A DNA stretch of 64,000 nt. It comes from Natranaerobius thermophilus JW/NM-WN-LF. Lineage in GTDB: Bacteria; Bacillota; Natranaerobiia; Natranaerobiales; Natranaerobiaceae. Below are positions 5,298-47,343 of this stretch, piece by piece. Made by a program: the position numbers and the translations under genes. The number at the start of each line of letters is the position of its first letter. Position 1 is the stretch's first letter. The notes under the pieces are model-generated. The model made no database searches. It was not told where the DNA came from and saw nothing but the letters and a program-made list of their open reading frames with translations. Where the stretch lies: the NCBI RefSeq assembly GCF_000020005.1, contig NC_010718.1, positions 140,001-204,000 of the forward strand. The letters run 5' to 3'.

Positions 5298-5344
5298 TTT
5301 GATGTAAATAGAGTAAAATAAAAAAACAAATGAATGAATATCTG

Positions 5345-5464
5345 ATACCTTCAGGGCAGGGTGAGATTCCCGACCGGCGGTAGAGCCCGCGAGCCTCTTG
5401 ATGTTAAGAGGTTGATTCGGTGAAATTCCGAAGCCGACAGTAAAAGTCTGGATGGGAGAAGGTT
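5345..5464 (+). promoter_or_regulatory. FMN riboswitch (RFN element)
   Basis: The leader carries the RFN landmarks in order: ATACCTTCAGGGCAGGGTG, ATTCCCGACCGGCGGTA, the variable arm, GAAATTCCGAAGCCGACAG, and GTCTGGATGGGAGAAGG. The aptamer binds FMN and sits directly ahead of the riboflavin genes. The intrinsic hairpin at 5511 suggests control by transcription termination. Confidence 0.97.
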
Positions 5465-5510
5465 TAAGATTGGAAACTGCTGATTAGCATCTTAGTACGA
5501 TCAGTAACCG

Positions 5511-18598: not shown

Positions 18599-18783
18599 AT
18601 CCTCTACACCCCCATTTAAAGTATAACGCATGTTATATAATATAAAAAGAATTCTTTTCAGAGAATTAAAGGAAAACATTTTTATATATGGAATATATAA
18701 ATTAGCATCTCAGACTGACGGAATTCTATCAAAATGTTAAAATTAATTATAATAAAATGAAAAATAAAAGATAGGTGATAAAA

Positions 18784-19407
18784 TTGGTAACGAGTTATAA
18801 CACAGTAAAATCAAACTCCGAAGTTGAATTATATATTAAGAAATCAAGGTTCATTTCATATGTTGCCCCAGTTGATAGCGAAGAAAAGGCCCAAGAATTT
18901 GTAAATACTATTAAGGAACAACACAGTGATGCTACCCACAACGTATACGCCTATCGAGTGGGTTTAAAGTCAGATATAAAGCGTCAAAGTGATGATGGGG
19001 AGCCAAGCGGTACTGCCGGTAAACCAGTTTTAGATGTAATAGAAAATCAAAATCTAAAGAATTTGGCAATAGTAGTCACAAGATATTTTGGAGGTATCAA
19101 ACTAGGGGCTGGTGGATTGGTTAGAGCGTATAGTAACAGTGCTAAAGAGGGTGTAGAACAAGCCGGTATTGTAACAAGGAGTTTACATAGTGAACTTAAA
19201 ATAGAAGTTGATTACTCACAATTGGGAAAAATTCAAAATGAAATTGGTGAAAGGACAAACTGGCTCTTGAGAAATACAGAATTTATGGAAAAAGTCAGCT
19301 TAATGGTAGCAGTTCCAGAAAATCAGGTTCAAGAATTTACAAACTTTGTTGAAAATATGACAGCTGGTCAAGGCCGAATTTGGGAAACAAAACAGTTATA
19401 CTTGTAA
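18784..19407 (+). CDS. YigZ/IMPACT family protein
   Basis: This belongs to UPF0029/IMPACT, a conserved family of unclear biochemical role linked to translation stress. The N-terminal domain shows the family segments KKSRFISYVAPV, DATHNVYAYRVG and SDDGEPSGTAGKPVLDVI, then VTRYFGGIKLGAGGLVRAYS. The C-terminal DUF1949-like domain follows from about 135. TTG 18784 is preferred (AGGTG 7 nt upstream); GTG 18775 is an alternative that adds three residues. It is monocistronic. Confidence 0.88.
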   Translation: MVTSYNTVKSNSEVELYIKKSRFISYVAPVDSEEKAQEFVNTIKEQHSDATHNVYAYRVGLKSDIKRQSDDGEPSGTAGKPVLDVIENQNLKNLAIVVTRYFGGIKLGAGGLVRAYSNSAKEGVEQAGIVTRSLHSELKIEVDYSQLGKIQNEIGERTNWLLRNTEFMEKVSLMVAVPENQVQEFTNFVENMTAGQGRIWETKQLYL

Positions 19408-19454: not shown

Positions 19455-19483
19455 TTGACAATAGGAAAAAATACAGTTACAAT
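19455..19483 (+). promoter_or_regulatory. trxB promoter
   Basis: TTGACA at 19455-19460 and TACAAT at 19478-19483 have 17-bp spacing. The expected transcription start (about 19490) falls inside the palindrome at 19488-19503. Confidence 0.8.
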
Positions 19484-19487
19484 CAAA

Positions 19488-19503
19488 ATACCCCCAGGGG
19501 TAT
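19488..19503. promoter_or_regulatory. CsoR/CstR-like operator at the trxB transcription start
   Basis: ATACCCC-CA-GGGGTAT is a palindrome with perfect 7-bp arms. It begins 4 nt after the -10 box and overlaps the predicted start site. The form TACCCC/GGGGTA is that of operators bound by CsoR-family repressors, which sense copper or persulfides. The family assignment is inferred from the pattern; no such regulator gene is in the window. Confidence 0.6.
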
Positions 19504-19518
19504 CAGGAGGTGCATGTA

Positions 19519-20448: not shown

Positions 20449-20474
20449 TTTTAAAAATGGAAGGAGAGATTAAT

Positions 20475-20798
20475 ATGTCAAAAATTTTAGAAGTGAATGA
20501 TACAAACTTTAAGGAGCAGGTACTGGAAGCTGATAAACCTGTATTAGTTGAGTTTTGGGCTCCTTGGTGCGGTCCATGTAAAATGGTTGCCCCAGTATTA
20601 GAAGAGCTTGCAGAAGAAATGGATGGAAAAATTAAAATTTGTAAAGTAAATGTTGATGAAAACACAGATACTGCAAGTGATTACGGTGTTATGAGTATTC
20701 CAACAATGGTATTGATTAAAGATGGAGAAGTTCAGGAACAGGTAGTAGGTTACTTACCACGTGAAGAACTGCAAAACAAAATAGAAGAAAATATTTAA
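20475..20798 (+). CDS. trxA: thioredoxin
   Basis: This is the small disulfide reductase used by many cell enzymes, including some ribonucleotide reductases. It has the active site WCGPC (Cys32, Cys35) in the family context EFWAPWCGPCKM, and cis-proline in MSIPTM. It is 107 residues. ATG 20475 follows AAGGAGAG; six more in-frame codons upstream have no ribosome site. It forms an operon with trxB. Confidence 0.97.
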   Translation: MSKILEVNDTNFKEQVLEADKPVLVEFWAPWCGPCKMVAPVLEELAEEMDGKIKICKVNVDENTDTASDYGVMSIPTMVLIKDGEVQEQVVGYLPREELQNKIEENI

Positions 20799-20813: not shown

Positions 20814-20838
20814 ACCCGTCTTTAGGACGGGTTTTTTT
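20814..20838 (+). terminator. trxBA terminator
   Basis: A 7-bp stem ACCCGTC/GACGGGT with loop TTTAG runs directly into seven T residues. Confidence 0.9.
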
Positions 20839-20901: not shown

Positions 20902-21681
20902 GTGCGACCTTTATGGAAAGGAGCAATTAGTTTCGGCTTAGTTAACGTTCCTGTGAAAATGTACGCTGCTACCGAAAAAAAGAATGTAAAATTTAGATAC
21001 CTCCACAGGGACTGTAATGCTCCCGTAGAATATAAAAGAGTTTGTTCAAACTGTAAAAAGGAAGTGCCTTATGAAGAAATAGTCAAAGGTTATGAATATG
21101 AACCAGGTAAGTTTGTAGTACTAGAAGATGAAGACTTTGAGGCATTGCCCCAGGAGGAAGCACGTTCTATCAACATTGTTGAATTTGTAAATTTATCAGA
21201 AATAGATCCAGTTTACTATGATAAAACTTACTATTTGACACCTCAAGAAACAGGTGAAAAACCATACCAACTATTGAAACAAGTGTTGAAAGAAAAGGGA
21301 AAAGTTGCAGTTTGTAAAGTTGTAATTAGATCCAAGTCTAATTTATCTTGTATTAGAATTTATGACGAAGTTTTGACTTTAGAAACTATGTATTTCCCTG
21401 ATGAAGTCAGAAATCCTAAAGAAGAACTAGAGATTGAAGAGCAGCCAGAGGTCATGTCAAGGGAATTAGAGATGGCTGGACAATTAGTTGACAGTTTAGA
21501 AGGGGAATTTCAACCAGAGAACTATCAGGACGAATACCGTGAGCATCTCATGGATTTAATTAAGGCTAAAATTCATGATGAAGATGTAACAATTCCAGAG
21601 AGACCTAAAGACGAACGTGTTGTCAATTTGATGGAGGCATTAGAAAAAAGTGTTGACTTAGTCAAAGAAAAATCCGGATAG
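20902..21681 (+). CDS. ku: Ku protein for non-homologous end joining
   Basis: Bacterial Ku is a homodimer that binds DNA ends and recruits LigD. The protein opens with MRPLWKGAISFGLVNVPVKMY, the family signature, and contains the C-x2-C pair CSNCKKEV near residue 40. GTG 20902 is chosen because GGAGGT precedes it and it gives the family N-terminus. At 259 residues it is typical. Ligase and polymerase genes lie directly downstream, so an end-joining system is complete here. Confidence 0.95.
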   Translation: MRPLWKGAISFGLVNVPVKMYAATEKKNVKFRYLHRDCNAPVEYKRVCSNCKKEVPYEEIVKGYEYEPGKFVVLEDEDFEALPQEEARSINIVEFVNLSEIDPVYYDKTYYLTPQETGEKPYQLLKQVLKEKGKVAVCKVVIRSKSNLSCIRIYDEVLTLETMYFPDEVRNPKEELEIEEQPEVMSRELEMAGQLVDSLEGEFQPENYQDEYREHLMDLIKAKIHDEDVTIPERPKDERVVNLMEALEKSVDLVKEKSG

Positions 21682-21684
21682 AGC

Positions 21685-22668
21685 TCAAATTATAAAACCA
21701 TTTATAACAGGATGCCGTAGATTTCCTCCTGGAGTCCAATTAGTATATTTTACCTGTAGCTTTAATTGTGGAGACAAAAAAACTACAGATTCTTTAGAAT
21801 CAGCTAGTTCTAAATCCACCTTAGATAGGTTGCCAAAGGGAGAGTTAGAGACTCTATTCTTAAAAGCAAAATCTTTTAACATATTTAACTCTTTTTGAGT
21901 AAGGCCAGTACTAGCCCTTCCTATATAGTTTAGTTTGTAATCAGCCAGATCACTTTTTTGTCCTAGTAATAAACTTTTTATTTGGTTTTCTTTGACTATT
22001 ACGCCTCCTAAATAAGCTTGTAAATACTTGAGGTGTTTTATTTTAAACCACTCACTGTGTTTTTTTCCTGGATGATAAATTGAATTACTTTTTTTTGCCA
22101 CAATACCTTCATGGTTTTGTTGGCTAGTAATATTAAAAAGACTTAATCCATCTGAATAAGAACGAATTATTTGTAAGAACTTGTTATTATTAAAATGTTT
22201 GTTGAGTAATTCTCTCCTTTTTATAAAGGGTTCATTTACTAGCCACTGATTATCAATCATTAATAGATCAAAAACTTTATACCGCACGGGGAAAGTTTTT
22301 AAAAGCTTTTGGGTTGGATTCTTGGTTCTATCTCTTTTAAGGACATGAAAAAAATTAGCTCCAACTTCCTCACAGGATTCATTGGTTGTAATAAATTTGG
22401 GGTGGTCTGATTTGTCTGTTTGATTTGCGACAATTATTTCTCCATCTAATAACCAAGTGGTATTTCCGAACTCTTTAGTTAGTTCATTTAATTCTGGGTA
22501 CTCAGTTGTTCTTTTAAAGCCTTTTTTAGTTCTAAGTTTAATGGAATTTCCATCAAAAAAAGTTAAGATTCTAATTCCATCCCATTTTATTTGATAGAAC
22601 CAATCATCTCCTGTAGGTACTGATTGTCTAGGTATTGGCTCCATAGCTTGGATTTGAAAAAACTCCAT
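21685..22668 (-). CDS. ligD: ATP-dependent DNA ligase, LigD ligase-domain type
   Basis: This ligase seals breaks in the NHEJ pathway. Motif I KWDGIR holds the adenylated Lys28. Motif III-like LLDGEIIV follows near 90, and EGIVAKK (motif IV) and WFKIK (motif V) are present, then an OB-fold region. At 327 residues it is only the ligase part of LigD; the polymerase part is a separate gene on the other strand and no phosphoesterase domain is seen. ATG 22668 follows AGGGGTGG. It converges on ku with 3 nt between the ends. Confidence 0.93.
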   Translation of the reverse strand: MEFFQIQAMEPIPRQSVPTGDDWFYQIKWDGIRILTFFDGNSIKLRTKKGFKRTTEYPELNELTKEFGNTTWLLDGEIIVANQTDKSDHPKFITTNESCEEVGANFFHVLKRDRTKNPTQKLLKTFPVRYKVFDLLMIDNQWLVNEPFIKRRELLNKHFNNNKFLQIIRSYSDGLSLFNITSQQNHEGIVAKKSNSIYHPGKKHSEWFKIKHLKYLQAYLGGVIVKENQIKSLLLGQKSDLADYKLNYIGRASTGLTQKELNMLKDFAFKNRVSNSPFGNLSKVDLELADSKESVVFLSPQLKLQVKYTNWTPGGNLRHPVINGFII

Positions 22669-22705
22669 TGCTACCACCCCTAGTGATATAGTTTTAATAT
22701 AGCTA

Positions 22706-22746
22706 TATTAAAGTTGAATGTTGATAACTGTTAAATTTCATTTCAC
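22706..22746 (+). repeat. copy of the dispersed TTAAAGTTGAATGTTGATAACTG motif
   Basis: The 25 nt at 22706-22730 are identical to 51222-51246, and both are followed by AAATTTCA-type sequence. The copy sits in the spacer between the divergent ligase and polymerase genes, so it may overlap their promoters. Confidence 0.6.
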
Positions 22747-22816
22747 TAAAAAATGCTTAAGTTTGATATATCTTGGACTTGGATTCAGGTATTAATAGTA
22801 GAAATAGGTGGTGAAT

Positions 22817-23737
22817 TTGAGATATATGGTCAATAGTCAAACCTTAGATGTCCACGGACGCGAAGTTGTGTTAACTAATTTATTAAAACCTATCTGGCCA
22901 GAAAAAGATATTACAAAATATGACTTAATCAAATACTTTCTTGATATGTCACCTTATATATTGCCCCATTTAAAAAATCGTCCTTTGGTTATAACTAGGT
23001 TCCCTGAAGGTGTGCATAAGGAAGGATTTTATCAGAAAGATATTAAGAAAGCAGGTAATTCACCTTCCTGGTTAAAAACAATTACAATTCCGACTAAAAA
23101 TAAAGAAAGAGAAAGACAAGTTATAGACTATTTAGTTGTAGATCATCCAGCAACTTTGGTATGGCTGGGGAATTTAGCGGCTGTAGAACTTCATCCATGG
23201 TTATCAAGTGTAGAGTCTTTAGATTATCCGGATTTTGGTGTTTTTGACTTAGATCCCATGCCCCAAGCTGACTTTTATCAAGTTAAAACTCTAGCTTTCA
23301 GTATCAAAAAAATTTTAAATCAGCTTGAGATAACAGGTTATCCCAAGCTGACAGGCTCTAGTGGCTTACAAATATTTGTACCTTTTTATCCCAAATATAC
23401 TTATCAAGAAATCCGAGAATTCATTCATAAAGTATGTTTGCAGGTTTTGGATCACCATGCTGATATTGCAACGATTGAGCGCAAAGTAAATCAGCGTCCC
23501 TCTCATAAGGTTTATCTGGATTATTTGCAAAATGCAAAAGGTAAAACAATTTCTGCTATTTATGGCCCTAGAGCCAACAAGGGCGCTCATGTGTCGGTTC
23601 CGGTTAACTGGGAGGAACTGGCGAATATTGAAACATCCCGACAGTATGATGTGCTATCTGTAGGAGCTCGGATGAAAAATACCGGCGATGTATTTAAAAC
23701 CATCTTAGAGAATAAACAAAAATTAAACTTTTGCTAA
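22817..23737 (+). CDS. LigD-type polymerase/primase domain protein
   Basis: This archaeo-eukaryotic primase-type polymerase fills gaps during end joining. Family segments include NLLKPIWPEKDITKYDLIKYF, NRPLVITRFPEG, the metal-binding GVFDLDPM near 150, and KLTGSSGLQIFVP. It is the stand-alone equivalent of the LigD polymerase domain. TTG 22817 gives 5-nt spacing from AGGTGG; an ATG at 22826 and a GTG at 22808 are alternatives. It is divergent from the ligase gene across about 150 nt. Confidence 0.9.
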   Translation: MRYMVNSQTLDVHGREVVLTNLLKPIWPEKDITKYDLIKYFLDMSPYILPHLKNRPLVITRFPEGVHKEGFYQKDIKKAGNSPSWLKTITIPTKNKERERQVIDYLVVDHPATLVWLGNLAAVELHPWLSSVESLDYPDFGVFDLDPMPQADFYQVKTLAFSIKKILNQLEITGYPKLTGSSGLQIFVPFYPKYTYQEIREFIHKVCLQVLDHHADIATIERKVNQRPSHKVYLDYLQNAKGKTISAIYGPRANKGAHVSVPVNWEELANIETSRQYDVLSVGARMKNTGDVFKTILENKQKLNFC

Positions 23738-24774: not shown

Positions 24775-26689
24775 GTGCGCCATGCATGACGATTAGCTAG
24801 GTGGTGTAAGTCCACTATGGGGGTTTGTAGTTACCAACCATTAGCCAAGAGCAAGGGTGCCCATCGTGAGGTGGGATCTGAAGGAAGCTTAAGGCAAAAT
24901 TCCGACCCAAGGCACACGAACATCATCAGGCATAAGGTATGGGATGAGTTTGCAATACAAAACGAAGTCCAATCAACTACACGGACATACCAGTGTAAAT
25001 GATGTGGGTACATGGAATGAAAGTTAATCGTCTTACCGTGGGAGGTCTCATGGACGTGGCAAGATGAACTTCGAACCACGGTTGAAATAAGATTTGTCAT
25101 GAGAAGTCAGCAGACTCCATAGTACTTGATGAGGTCGACATCATTAAGGAAGGGATGAACCTAGGAGGAGATCAGTAAATGACTGTTACCAATAAAGGAA
25201 TGAAGTGCCGCCAACTTCTGACAGGCGAAAGCTGCAAAGAAGGCTCACCGCAGAAGAATAGTGCGGAACACGAAGGATATGCGGGAGTGCACAGTTCTTT
25301 AAGGATAACTGAAAACAACATCTCCAATGCAAACTTGTCGAAGGGGAATTTGCTAGAGGAAATTTTGGATAGAGACAACATGAATAAAGCATTCAAGAAA
25401 ATAAAATCCAACAAAGGCTCTCACGGGATTGATGGGATGGGAGTAGATGAACTTCTACAATATCTCAAAGAAAACGGGGACCACCTCAGGCAAAGAGTCC
25501 TGGACGGTAAATACCGCCCTAATCCCGTCAGAAGGGTAGAGATACCTAAAGAAGATGGGAAGAAAAGAAAATTAGGCATACCTACAGTGGTAGACAGGGT
25601 AATCCAACAAGCAATAGCCCAAGTACTATCTCCAATATATGAGGAGCAATTCTCAGATAACAGCTATGGTTTTCGCCCTGGACGCAGTACTCATGATGCA
25701 ATTAAGAAAAGTCAACAAAACATAAATGAAGGATACAAATATGTAGTAGATATGGACTTGGAGAAATACTTTGACACAGTAAACCAGAGCAAATTGATAG
25801 AAGTGCTATCTAAGACAATAAAAGACGGTCGAGTAATATCTCTTATCAACAAATATCTAAGAGCAGGAGTAATGATCAAACACACCTATAAGGATACAGA
25901 AGTTGGCGTGCCCCAGGGCGGGCCTCTTAGCCCTATCCTCAGTAACATAATGCTCCACGAATTGGATAAAGAACTTGAGAAAAGGGGGCACGAATTCGTC
26001 CGCTATGCGGACGACCTGCTAATCTTTTGTAAAAGCAGAAGAAGTGCCGGACGCACCTTGAAGAACATACTACCCTTCATCGAAAATAAACTATTTCTCA
26101 AAGTAAATAAAGATAAAACTGTAGTTGCCTATGTAGGAAAGGTAAGATTTCTTGGGTTTGGCTTTTACAGACATAAAGGAAAAGCCAGATTAAGAGTTCA
26201 TCTTAAATCAGTTACAAAGATGAGAACGAGAATAAAAGAACTCACATCTAGAAGTTATGGAATAAGCAACGAAGCCAGAGCAAAGAAACTTAGCCGATAC
26301 ATTATGGGTTGGGTTAACTACTTTAAACCAGCTGATATGAAGAATCTGTTAATAAATACTGACAGTTGGATGAGAAGGCGTATTCGCATGATTTACTGGA
26401 AACAATGGAAGAAAGTGAGAACAAAATTTAAAATGCTCAAGTTCTTTGGAGCCAATAAATACAAAGCATGGGAATATGCAAACACAAGAAAGGGCTACTG
26501 GAGAATTTCCAATAGCCCCGTCTTATCCAAATCCCTTGGAAATGATGTAATCAAAGGATTTGGTTTCCTATTCTTTTCGGAATATTATCGACAAGTTAAA
26601 GCGTAAACTAGGAACCGCCGTGTACCGAACGGTTTGCTCGGTGGTGTGAGAGGTCGGTAGATAAAATAATTATCTACCTCCTACTCGAT
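24775..26689 (+). mobile_element. group IIC intron with its reverse transcriptase gene
   Basis: This is a retroelement of about 1.9 kb. The 5' end GTGCGC at 24775 fits the GUGYG rule. Domain V is at 26613-26646 (AACCGCCGTGTACC... with a CGC triad as in class C introns), and a domain VI hairpin ends in CTACTCGAT near 26689. The 5' exon end TTTCATT (24768-24774) is complementary to AATGAAA at 25016-25022, a good IBS1/EBS1 pair. The IEP gene is open, so the intron may be active. The exact 3' end is uncertain by a few bases. Confidence 0.9.
25179..26606 (+). CDS. ltrA: group II intron reverse transcriptase/maturase
   Basis: This intron-encoded protein splices the intron and copies it into new DNA sites. 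The 475-residue protein has an RT domain at about 65-330, including RRVEIPKEDGKKRKLGIPTVVDR, YGFRPGRSTHDAI, VPQGGPLSPILSNIML and the catalytic YADD at 276-279. Then comes the maturase X region with LSRYIMGWVNYFK. I see no H-N-H endonuclease at the C-terminus, as expected for class C. ATG 25179 follows GGAGGAG. The frame is intact. Confidence 0.94.
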   Translation: MTVTNKGMKCRQLLTGESCKEGSPQKNSAEHEGYAGVHSSLRITENNISNANLSKGNLLEEILDRDNMNKAFKKIKSNKGSHGIDGMGVDELLQYLKENGDHLRQRVLDGKYRPNPVRRVEIPKEDGKKRKLGIPTVVDRVIQQAIAQVLSPIYEEQFSDNSYGFRPGRSTHDAIKKSQQNINEGYKYVVDMDLEKYFDTVNQSKLIEVLSKTIKDGRVISLINKYLRAGVMIKHTYKDTEVGVPQGGPLSPILSNIMLHELDKELEKRGHEFVRYADDLLIFCKSRRSAGRTLKNILPFIENKLFLKVNKDKTVVAYVGKVRFLGFGFYRHKGKARLRVHLKSVTKMRTRIKELTSRSYGISNEARAKKLSRYIMGWVNYFKPADMKNLLINTDSWMRRRIRMIYWKQWKKVRTKFKMLKFFGANKYKAWEYANTRKGYWRISNSPVLSKSLGNDVIKGFGFLFFSEYYRQVKA

Positions 26690-47243: not shown

Positions 47244-47343
47244 GGCAGAGTAGGGGTCTTGCGTTAAGTGCTGGAGGATGGAACGTTGCCTCCAGACGAA
47301 AGTCCTGGAAAGGACTTGCGATAAGATCTCGCGTTCGCTGCCA
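47244..47343 (+). promoter_or_regulatory. tetrahydrofolate (THF) riboswitch
   Basis: The leader shows the THF aptamer landmarks: GGCAGAGTAGG, CTTGCGTTAAGTGC, GGATGGAACGTTG, GACGAAAG, and CTCGCGTTCGCTGCC at the closing side of P1. It lies directly upstream of the folate transporter gene folT, the standard target of this class. Confidence 0.93.

Follow-up and report, generated by a model that had tools for sequence, protein, structure and literature searches.

CsoR copper repressors with type-2 operators, as described from S. lividans, B. subtilis and S. aureus, are PF02583 proteins; at their promoter sites a TAC/GTA dyad encloses G-tracts. The usual operator of this type is TAC-N9-GTA, and in S. 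lividans CsoR the mutation of either R57 or Q81 leaves no detectable operator binding (PMC3902906). For the Firmicutes, a meta-regulon study of the gut lists csoR and copA as CsoR targets (PMC4938975). CstR, a persulfide repressor, is known from S. aureus and E. faecalis; the staphylococcal cstR-cstA intergenic boxes have a spacing of N8, and among the CstR targets of E. faecalis is a CoA-persulfide reductase (PMC9405070). A further repressor of the CsoR family, TTHA1953 of Thermus thermophilus, comes off its operator once its cysteines are joined in disulfides, and the thioredoxin-like gene soxW is among its targets (PMC10318464). Changing the spacing of its operator by one base costs TTHA1953 10-15-fold in affinity.

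OxyR is a LysR-type regulator, of a protein family unrelated to CsoR. The E. coli protein is described as a sulfane-sulfur sensor that induces the genes for sulfane-sulfur removal (PMC6831875). Thioredoxin regulation in anaerobic Firmicutes is poorly known. For C. difficile, sigma-B and O2 have been described, and no sulfur or metal repressor (PMC10880999).

Here we examine a palindrome on the start of the trxB-trxA operon of Natranaerobius thermophilus. The box is nearly identical to the copZA2 site of S. lividans, ATACCCCCTAGGGGTAA (PMC3902906). Unlike in the known CsoR systems, it is the thioredoxin genes that are boxed while the copper-type ATPases are not, and the spacing at trxB is N8 rather than N9, as in CstR. 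As with the E. faecalis CstR target, a CoA-disulfide-reductase-like gene of this genome is boxed too. The locus differs from CstR in that His, absent in S. aureus CstR, is kept in CsoR1, the candidate repressor discussed below, and in that the genome lacks a CstR-side protein. With TTHA1953 it would share the tie of a CsoR-family repressor to a thioredoxin-type gene, although the TTHA1953 operator, TACNNTACNNNNGTANNGTA, has no G-tract and serves Sox targets. The OxyR case is comparable in that a sulfane-sulfur sensor turns on removal genes. In a literature search from which subscription journals were largely missing, we found no paper that counts trxB-trxA among the targets of CstR and none that describes, for Clostridia, a regulon joining CsoR and thioredoxin; the novelty of the link is therefore provisional. 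An earlier note on this DNA likewise knew of no standard trxB regulator of this type in Clostridia, and the searchable literature agrees, yet the arrangement itself proves to be common.

The palindrome and its promoter

The window, that is, the whole stretch of 64,000 nucleotides that was analysed (contig NC_010718.1), contains the features collected in Table 1. The earlier note, made from the letters alone, had described a perfect 7+7 palindrome directly after a strong promoter and had assigned it to the CsoR/CstR operator type. The sequence is exactly as claimed. The promoter has 11 of 12 consensus bases and is the best of the region in a promoter scan; the palindrome begins 4 nt past the -10 element (CAAA between), over the expected trxB transcription start, and the AGGAGG lies between palindrome and ATG. 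The assignment to an operator type is supported as well, the TAC/GTA inverted repeat around G-tracts at a promoter conforming to type-2 CsoR operators and its spacing resembling that of staphylococcal cstR promoters.

Table 1. Features of the trxB-trxA locus, in positions of the window.
Feature	Position	Strand	Basis
-35 element TTGACA, trxB-trxA promoter	19455..19460	+	sequence; promoter scan
-10 element TACAAT, spacer 17 nt	19478..19483	+	sequence; promoter scan
operator-like palindrome ATACCCC-CA-GGGGTAT (TAC-N8-GTA)	19488..19503	+	sequence; recurring architecture in relatives
ribosome-binding site AGGAGG	19505..19510	+	sequence
trxB, thioredoxin-disulfide reductase, 309 aa	19519..20448	+	TIGR01292 above cut-off, 386.7 bits
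trxA, thioredoxin, 108 aa, WCGPC	20472..20798	+	TIGR01068 above cut-off, 135.1 bits
intrinsic terminator ending trxB-trxA operon	20814..20832	+	terminator scan: 8-bp stem, T tail
yigZ-type gene (UPF0029), 5' neighbour of trxB	18775..19407	+	PF01205

Within the window, and likewise within the whole genome (three contigs, 3,191,453 bases, the main contig having 3,165,557), the exact 16-mer has a single copy; base composition leads one to expect about 0.004 copies per 3.19 Mb. Allowing up to 3 mismatches brings the matches in the window to 4, where 1.4 are expected, so that only the exact site stands out there. When the motif is loosened to TACCC-N3..6-GGGTA, the whole genome yields 9 exact matches and the mirrored control 8. 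Because there is no excess, the weak motif alone proves nothing, and the weak-motif scan, whose matches lie mostly within ORFs, was dropped as evidence.

The evidence is carried by promoter placement and not by such counts. Among the exact-motif and 17-mer hits, three show the placement typical of CsoR sites, namely those at trxB, at a CoADR-like operon and at fmdB, and most others are inside ORFs. The box ATACCCCCGAGGGGTAT follows TTGACA-N17-TATATT, and downstream of it are encoded an FAD enzyme of 455 aa and a NapH-like ferredoxin protein. The PDB matches of the FAD enzyme are CoA-disulfide reductases and a CoA-persulfide reductase (8a56); we call it only CoADR-like since its score is below the NCBIfam cut-off. 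The other box, ATACCCAATAGGGGTAT, follows TTGACA-N17-TAAAAT ahead of an FmdB-family zinc-ribbon gene. The earlier note had proposed a search for the same box elsewhere: the exact 16-mer does not recur, and matching boxes stand on two other promoters of the genome. No box was found at the promoters of its two copper-type P-type ATPases or at its ccdA orthologue. Two sets of candidates were rejected, TTACCCCCAGGGGTAA at C2:210337, which is inside an RNA-polymerase-subunit-like ORF, and the other inspected 17-mer matches (L374-L381), which lie within or overlap ORFs. We conclude that a repressor of the CsoR family very probably docks on the palindrome at the trxB-trxA start.

Boxes and gene order in relatives

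In the sister genus (G001, L074) the order yigZ, box, trx and ku is kept, with trxA replacing trxB-trxA, and the trxA promoter reads TTGACA-N17-TACAAT-N4-ATACCCCGCAAGGGTAT. A second box of the same geometry precedes a DsbD/CcdA-type (ccdA) gene in that genome. When these two are taken together with the three boxed promoters of N. thermophilus, the arrangement TTGACA-N17-TANAAT-N4-box is seen in 4 of the 5. Near-identical TACCCT-N4-AGGGTA palindromes also occur six times in G001 (L077, L078, L080, L081, L082 and L086); they are probably a repeat family and inflate the motif counts in that genome.

Further afield, the 500 bp ahead of trxB contain a box (score 12/14 or better) at 12 of 70 loci, N. 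thermophilus included, against 0.66 in shuffles; the controls gave none inside genes and one for the mirrored motif. Boxed trxB-trxA operons are present in G094, G056 and G010, and boxed yccU-trxB operons in G004, G039, G080 and G089. Most of the relatives' boxes overlap a -10-like hexamer or start 0-14 nt past it, a few of the promoter calls being uncertain. The regulator gene is itself drawn into this neighbourhood: 29 of 101 genomes, from about 21 families, have csoR and trxA as neighbours (at most 600 bp apart on one strand), where about 0.03 pairs would be expected by chance. The usual order is aspS, a moeB-like gene, csoR and trxA, a box often standing immediately upstream of csoR, and in G063 and G019 csoR precedes trxB. 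At the level of gene order and predicted boxes, the comparison, which took in about 100 relatives, shows that the link of CsoR-type regulators with thioredoxin recurs across the phylum.

Candidate reader and signal

The earlier note had made its reading depend on the presence of a CsoR-family gene, and the genome has two of PF02583, encoding CsoR1 (G000:C2:1366132, L001) and CsoR2 (G000:C2:1340871, L002). The csoR1 gene lies 3' of aspS and a 6S RNA, and csoR2 beside an aminotransferase-like gene. The csoR1 locus corresponds to the aspS side of the relatives' csoR-trxA locus, with trxA missing; no trx genes adjoin it in this genome, its own promoter has no box, and no copper genes were found beside it. 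Both proteins keep C-H-C, and the best match of each in a PDB search is a CsoR (4m1p).

We propose that CsoR1 is the local member of a group of CsoR-family repressors that, throughout the phylum, are linked to thioredoxin genes. In its reduced state and without ligand, CsoR1 would occupy the box and block RNA polymerase. Modification of its cysteine pair by persulfide or polysulfide, or by disulfide stress, is the favoured trigger of release, with Cu(I) binding as the alternative. Release would raise TrxB and TrxA together with the CoA-disulfide/persulfide-reductase-like enzyme and the FmdB-type protein, and thioredoxin would in turn re-reduce its targets, possibly the CsoR1 sensor among them, which would close a feedback loop. 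Such a loop is plausible because thioredoxin has been described as cleaning persulfidated proteins (reviewed in PMC9774590) and because thioredoxin-2 is reported to reduce the polysulfide link in the SqrR sensor (PMC10044876). Binding, repression, signal and feedback of CsoR1 at trxB are what we infer from sequence comparison, and the explanation as a whole, a CsoR-family operator read by CsoR1 with a thiol signal favoured, appears to us to have a good claim to be correct. If true, a CsoR-family switch would put the main repair system for protein thiols under the direct influence of reactive sulfur or copper, a connection relevant to anaerobes of sulfide-rich habitats.

The choice between the two signals draws on the ligands of the regulators. 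The copper signature Y-C-H-C-E is found in 42 of 45 copA-linked regulators and in 8 of 25 trxA-linked ones (p = 1e-7; here and below the rows are related by descent, and the p-values overstate their independence). Both cysteines are kept in all 25 trxA-linked regulators, and in 10 of them His has become Tyr, Asn or Gln. This is the pattern expected if the trx-linked regulators rely on the cysteine pair in the manner of CstR and TTHA1953. Since these regulators retain Cys and mostly lose the copper signature, and since the copper-type ATPases of N. thermophilus are unboxed, the comparative evidence leans toward thiol or persulfide as the inducer of trxB-trxA, for which the earlier note had named persulfide or metal stress. 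The same operator and reader could, however, respond to Cu(I), CsoR1 being then a classic copper sensor with thioredoxin in its regulon because copper attacks thiols. CsoR1 does carry the complete Cu(I) signature, and G004 and G039, with one CsoR gene each, have boxes at csoR-trxA, at yccU-trxB and at a copA-like gene, which speaks for copper there. Against this stand the unboxed ATPases already mentioned, the mostly thiol-redox character of the boxed genes and the loss of His or the second-shell Tyr by trxA-linked regulators in most families, so that we regard a copper signal as possible but rather unlikely.

A broader proposal is that, across the phylum, one branch of the CsoR family serves mainly in the thiol/persulfide-redox regulation of the thioredoxin system (csoR-trxA, trxB, CoADR-like and ccdA), a branch in which the copper ligand was repeatedly lost and the Cys pair kept and a dyad spacing of 8 versus 9-10 separates CstR- from CsoR-type; for this we consider the balance to be even. 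The comparison offers testable rules, by which a kept cysteine pair with a lost copper ligand would point to thiol sensing, Arg/Lys versus Thr in helix 1 to the reading of type-2 operators, and 8 versus 9 bases to a CstR- versus a CsoR-type operator.

As to the reader, the genome has just one further CsoR-family protein, CsoR2, which, having C-H-C, might serve in place of CsoR1. At the positions equivalent to R57 and Q81 of the S. lividans protein, CsoR1 has Arg and Gln and CsoR2 has Thr and Gln. Among 120 regulators, a type-2 box lies upstream of 0 of 26 with Thr or Asn at the R57 position and of 42 of 93 with Arg or Lys (p = 3e-6, the grouping having been chosen after the table was inspected). 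Arg alone at this position was rejected as a predictor of the box (p = 0.34), whereas Arg/Lys versus Thr/Asn separates fully. CsoR1 is likely to be the reader of the trxB box because it has the Arg and Gln needed for type-2 operators, Thr standing at the Arg position in CsoR2. In a tree built on few columns, CsoR1 groups weakly with aspS/trxA-linked rows (83/73) and CsoR2 lies inside a copA-dominated group (99/82); the trxA-linked regulators do not form one clade in this tree. The match to 7mq1 scores 60.6 bits for CsoR1 and 43.8 bits for CsoR2 in the PDB search, this entry being the same sequence row as 7MQ2, which is named as a CstR structure (PMC9774590). With its Thr, shared with regulators that have no box upstream, and its copA-linked relatives, CsoR2 is a very improbable reader. 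A protein of the CstR clade (two Cys, His replaced) was not found in the genome, CsoR1 and CsoR2 being its sole family members, and both lie across a 97/97 branch from the CstR of S. aureus, for which a query sequence was used that annotated cstR genes match at 84-91%.

For CsoR1 the main loose end is the spacing of the box, which has 8 bases from TAC to GTA and not the usual 9 of type-2 CsoR operators. The CoADR-like and FmdB boxes of the same genome have N9, as do those of trxA and ccdA in G001. Upstream of CstR-side regulators the boxes have N8 in 8 of 8 cases, and upstream of all other regulators N9 (32) or N10 (3); four cstA-cstR intergenic regions of staphylococcal plasmids, from which the known CstR operators were taken, also have N8 boxes. 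The trxB box thus has the spacing of CstR-type operators, though the genome lacks a CstR-side protein, and in view of the spacing effect in TTHA1953, CsoR1 might bind it weakly. Either CsoR1 accepts both N8 and N9, or its operator at trxB is a weakened one.

That the palindrome works in RNA, as a 5' hairpin (6 bp, 4-nt loop) stabilising or regulating the trxB message, is very improbable. The transcript would indeed begin with a small stable hairpin, but the 76-nt leader is not more stable than shuffles (z -1.0), the boxes of relatives, given their position on or just past the -10 element, are often partly untranscribed, and pair mismatches are tolerated where TAC/GTA is kept, in a scan that required TAC/GTA. 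Just as little credit can be given to a palindrome that arose by chance or that serves some unrelated repressor: weak versions of the motif are as frequent as control patterns in the genome, but the exact 16-mer is expected only about 0.004 times per genome, and the box keeps its position in the sister genus and is met again at trx and csoR promoters of many families.

Neighbouring features

Elsewhere in the genome, ATATCCTAGGGGGTAT at G000:C2:1516535 (L010) lies between the -35 and -10 elements of rpsO, a MerR-like placement, and is without the left TAC. A second pair, TrxB-like (43% identity) and TrxA-like (35%), is encoded at G000:C2:498686-500297. The 6S RNA between aspS and csoR1 (L001, 1262-1442) is also present in G001 (L286, 2144-2322).

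Right after trxB-trxA, at 20902-23737, the window contains a Ku-type gene and two LigD-like ORFs, one for a ligase (minus strand) and one for a polymerase, which, judged from the translated ORFs alone, form a bacterial NHEJ set; Ku is beside trxA in G001 too. A group II intron with a reverse-transcriptase-like ORF follows at 24860-26606 (Rfam RF02001, RF01998), and the window further holds an FMN riboswitch at 5343-5467 and a THF riboswitch at 47244-47342.
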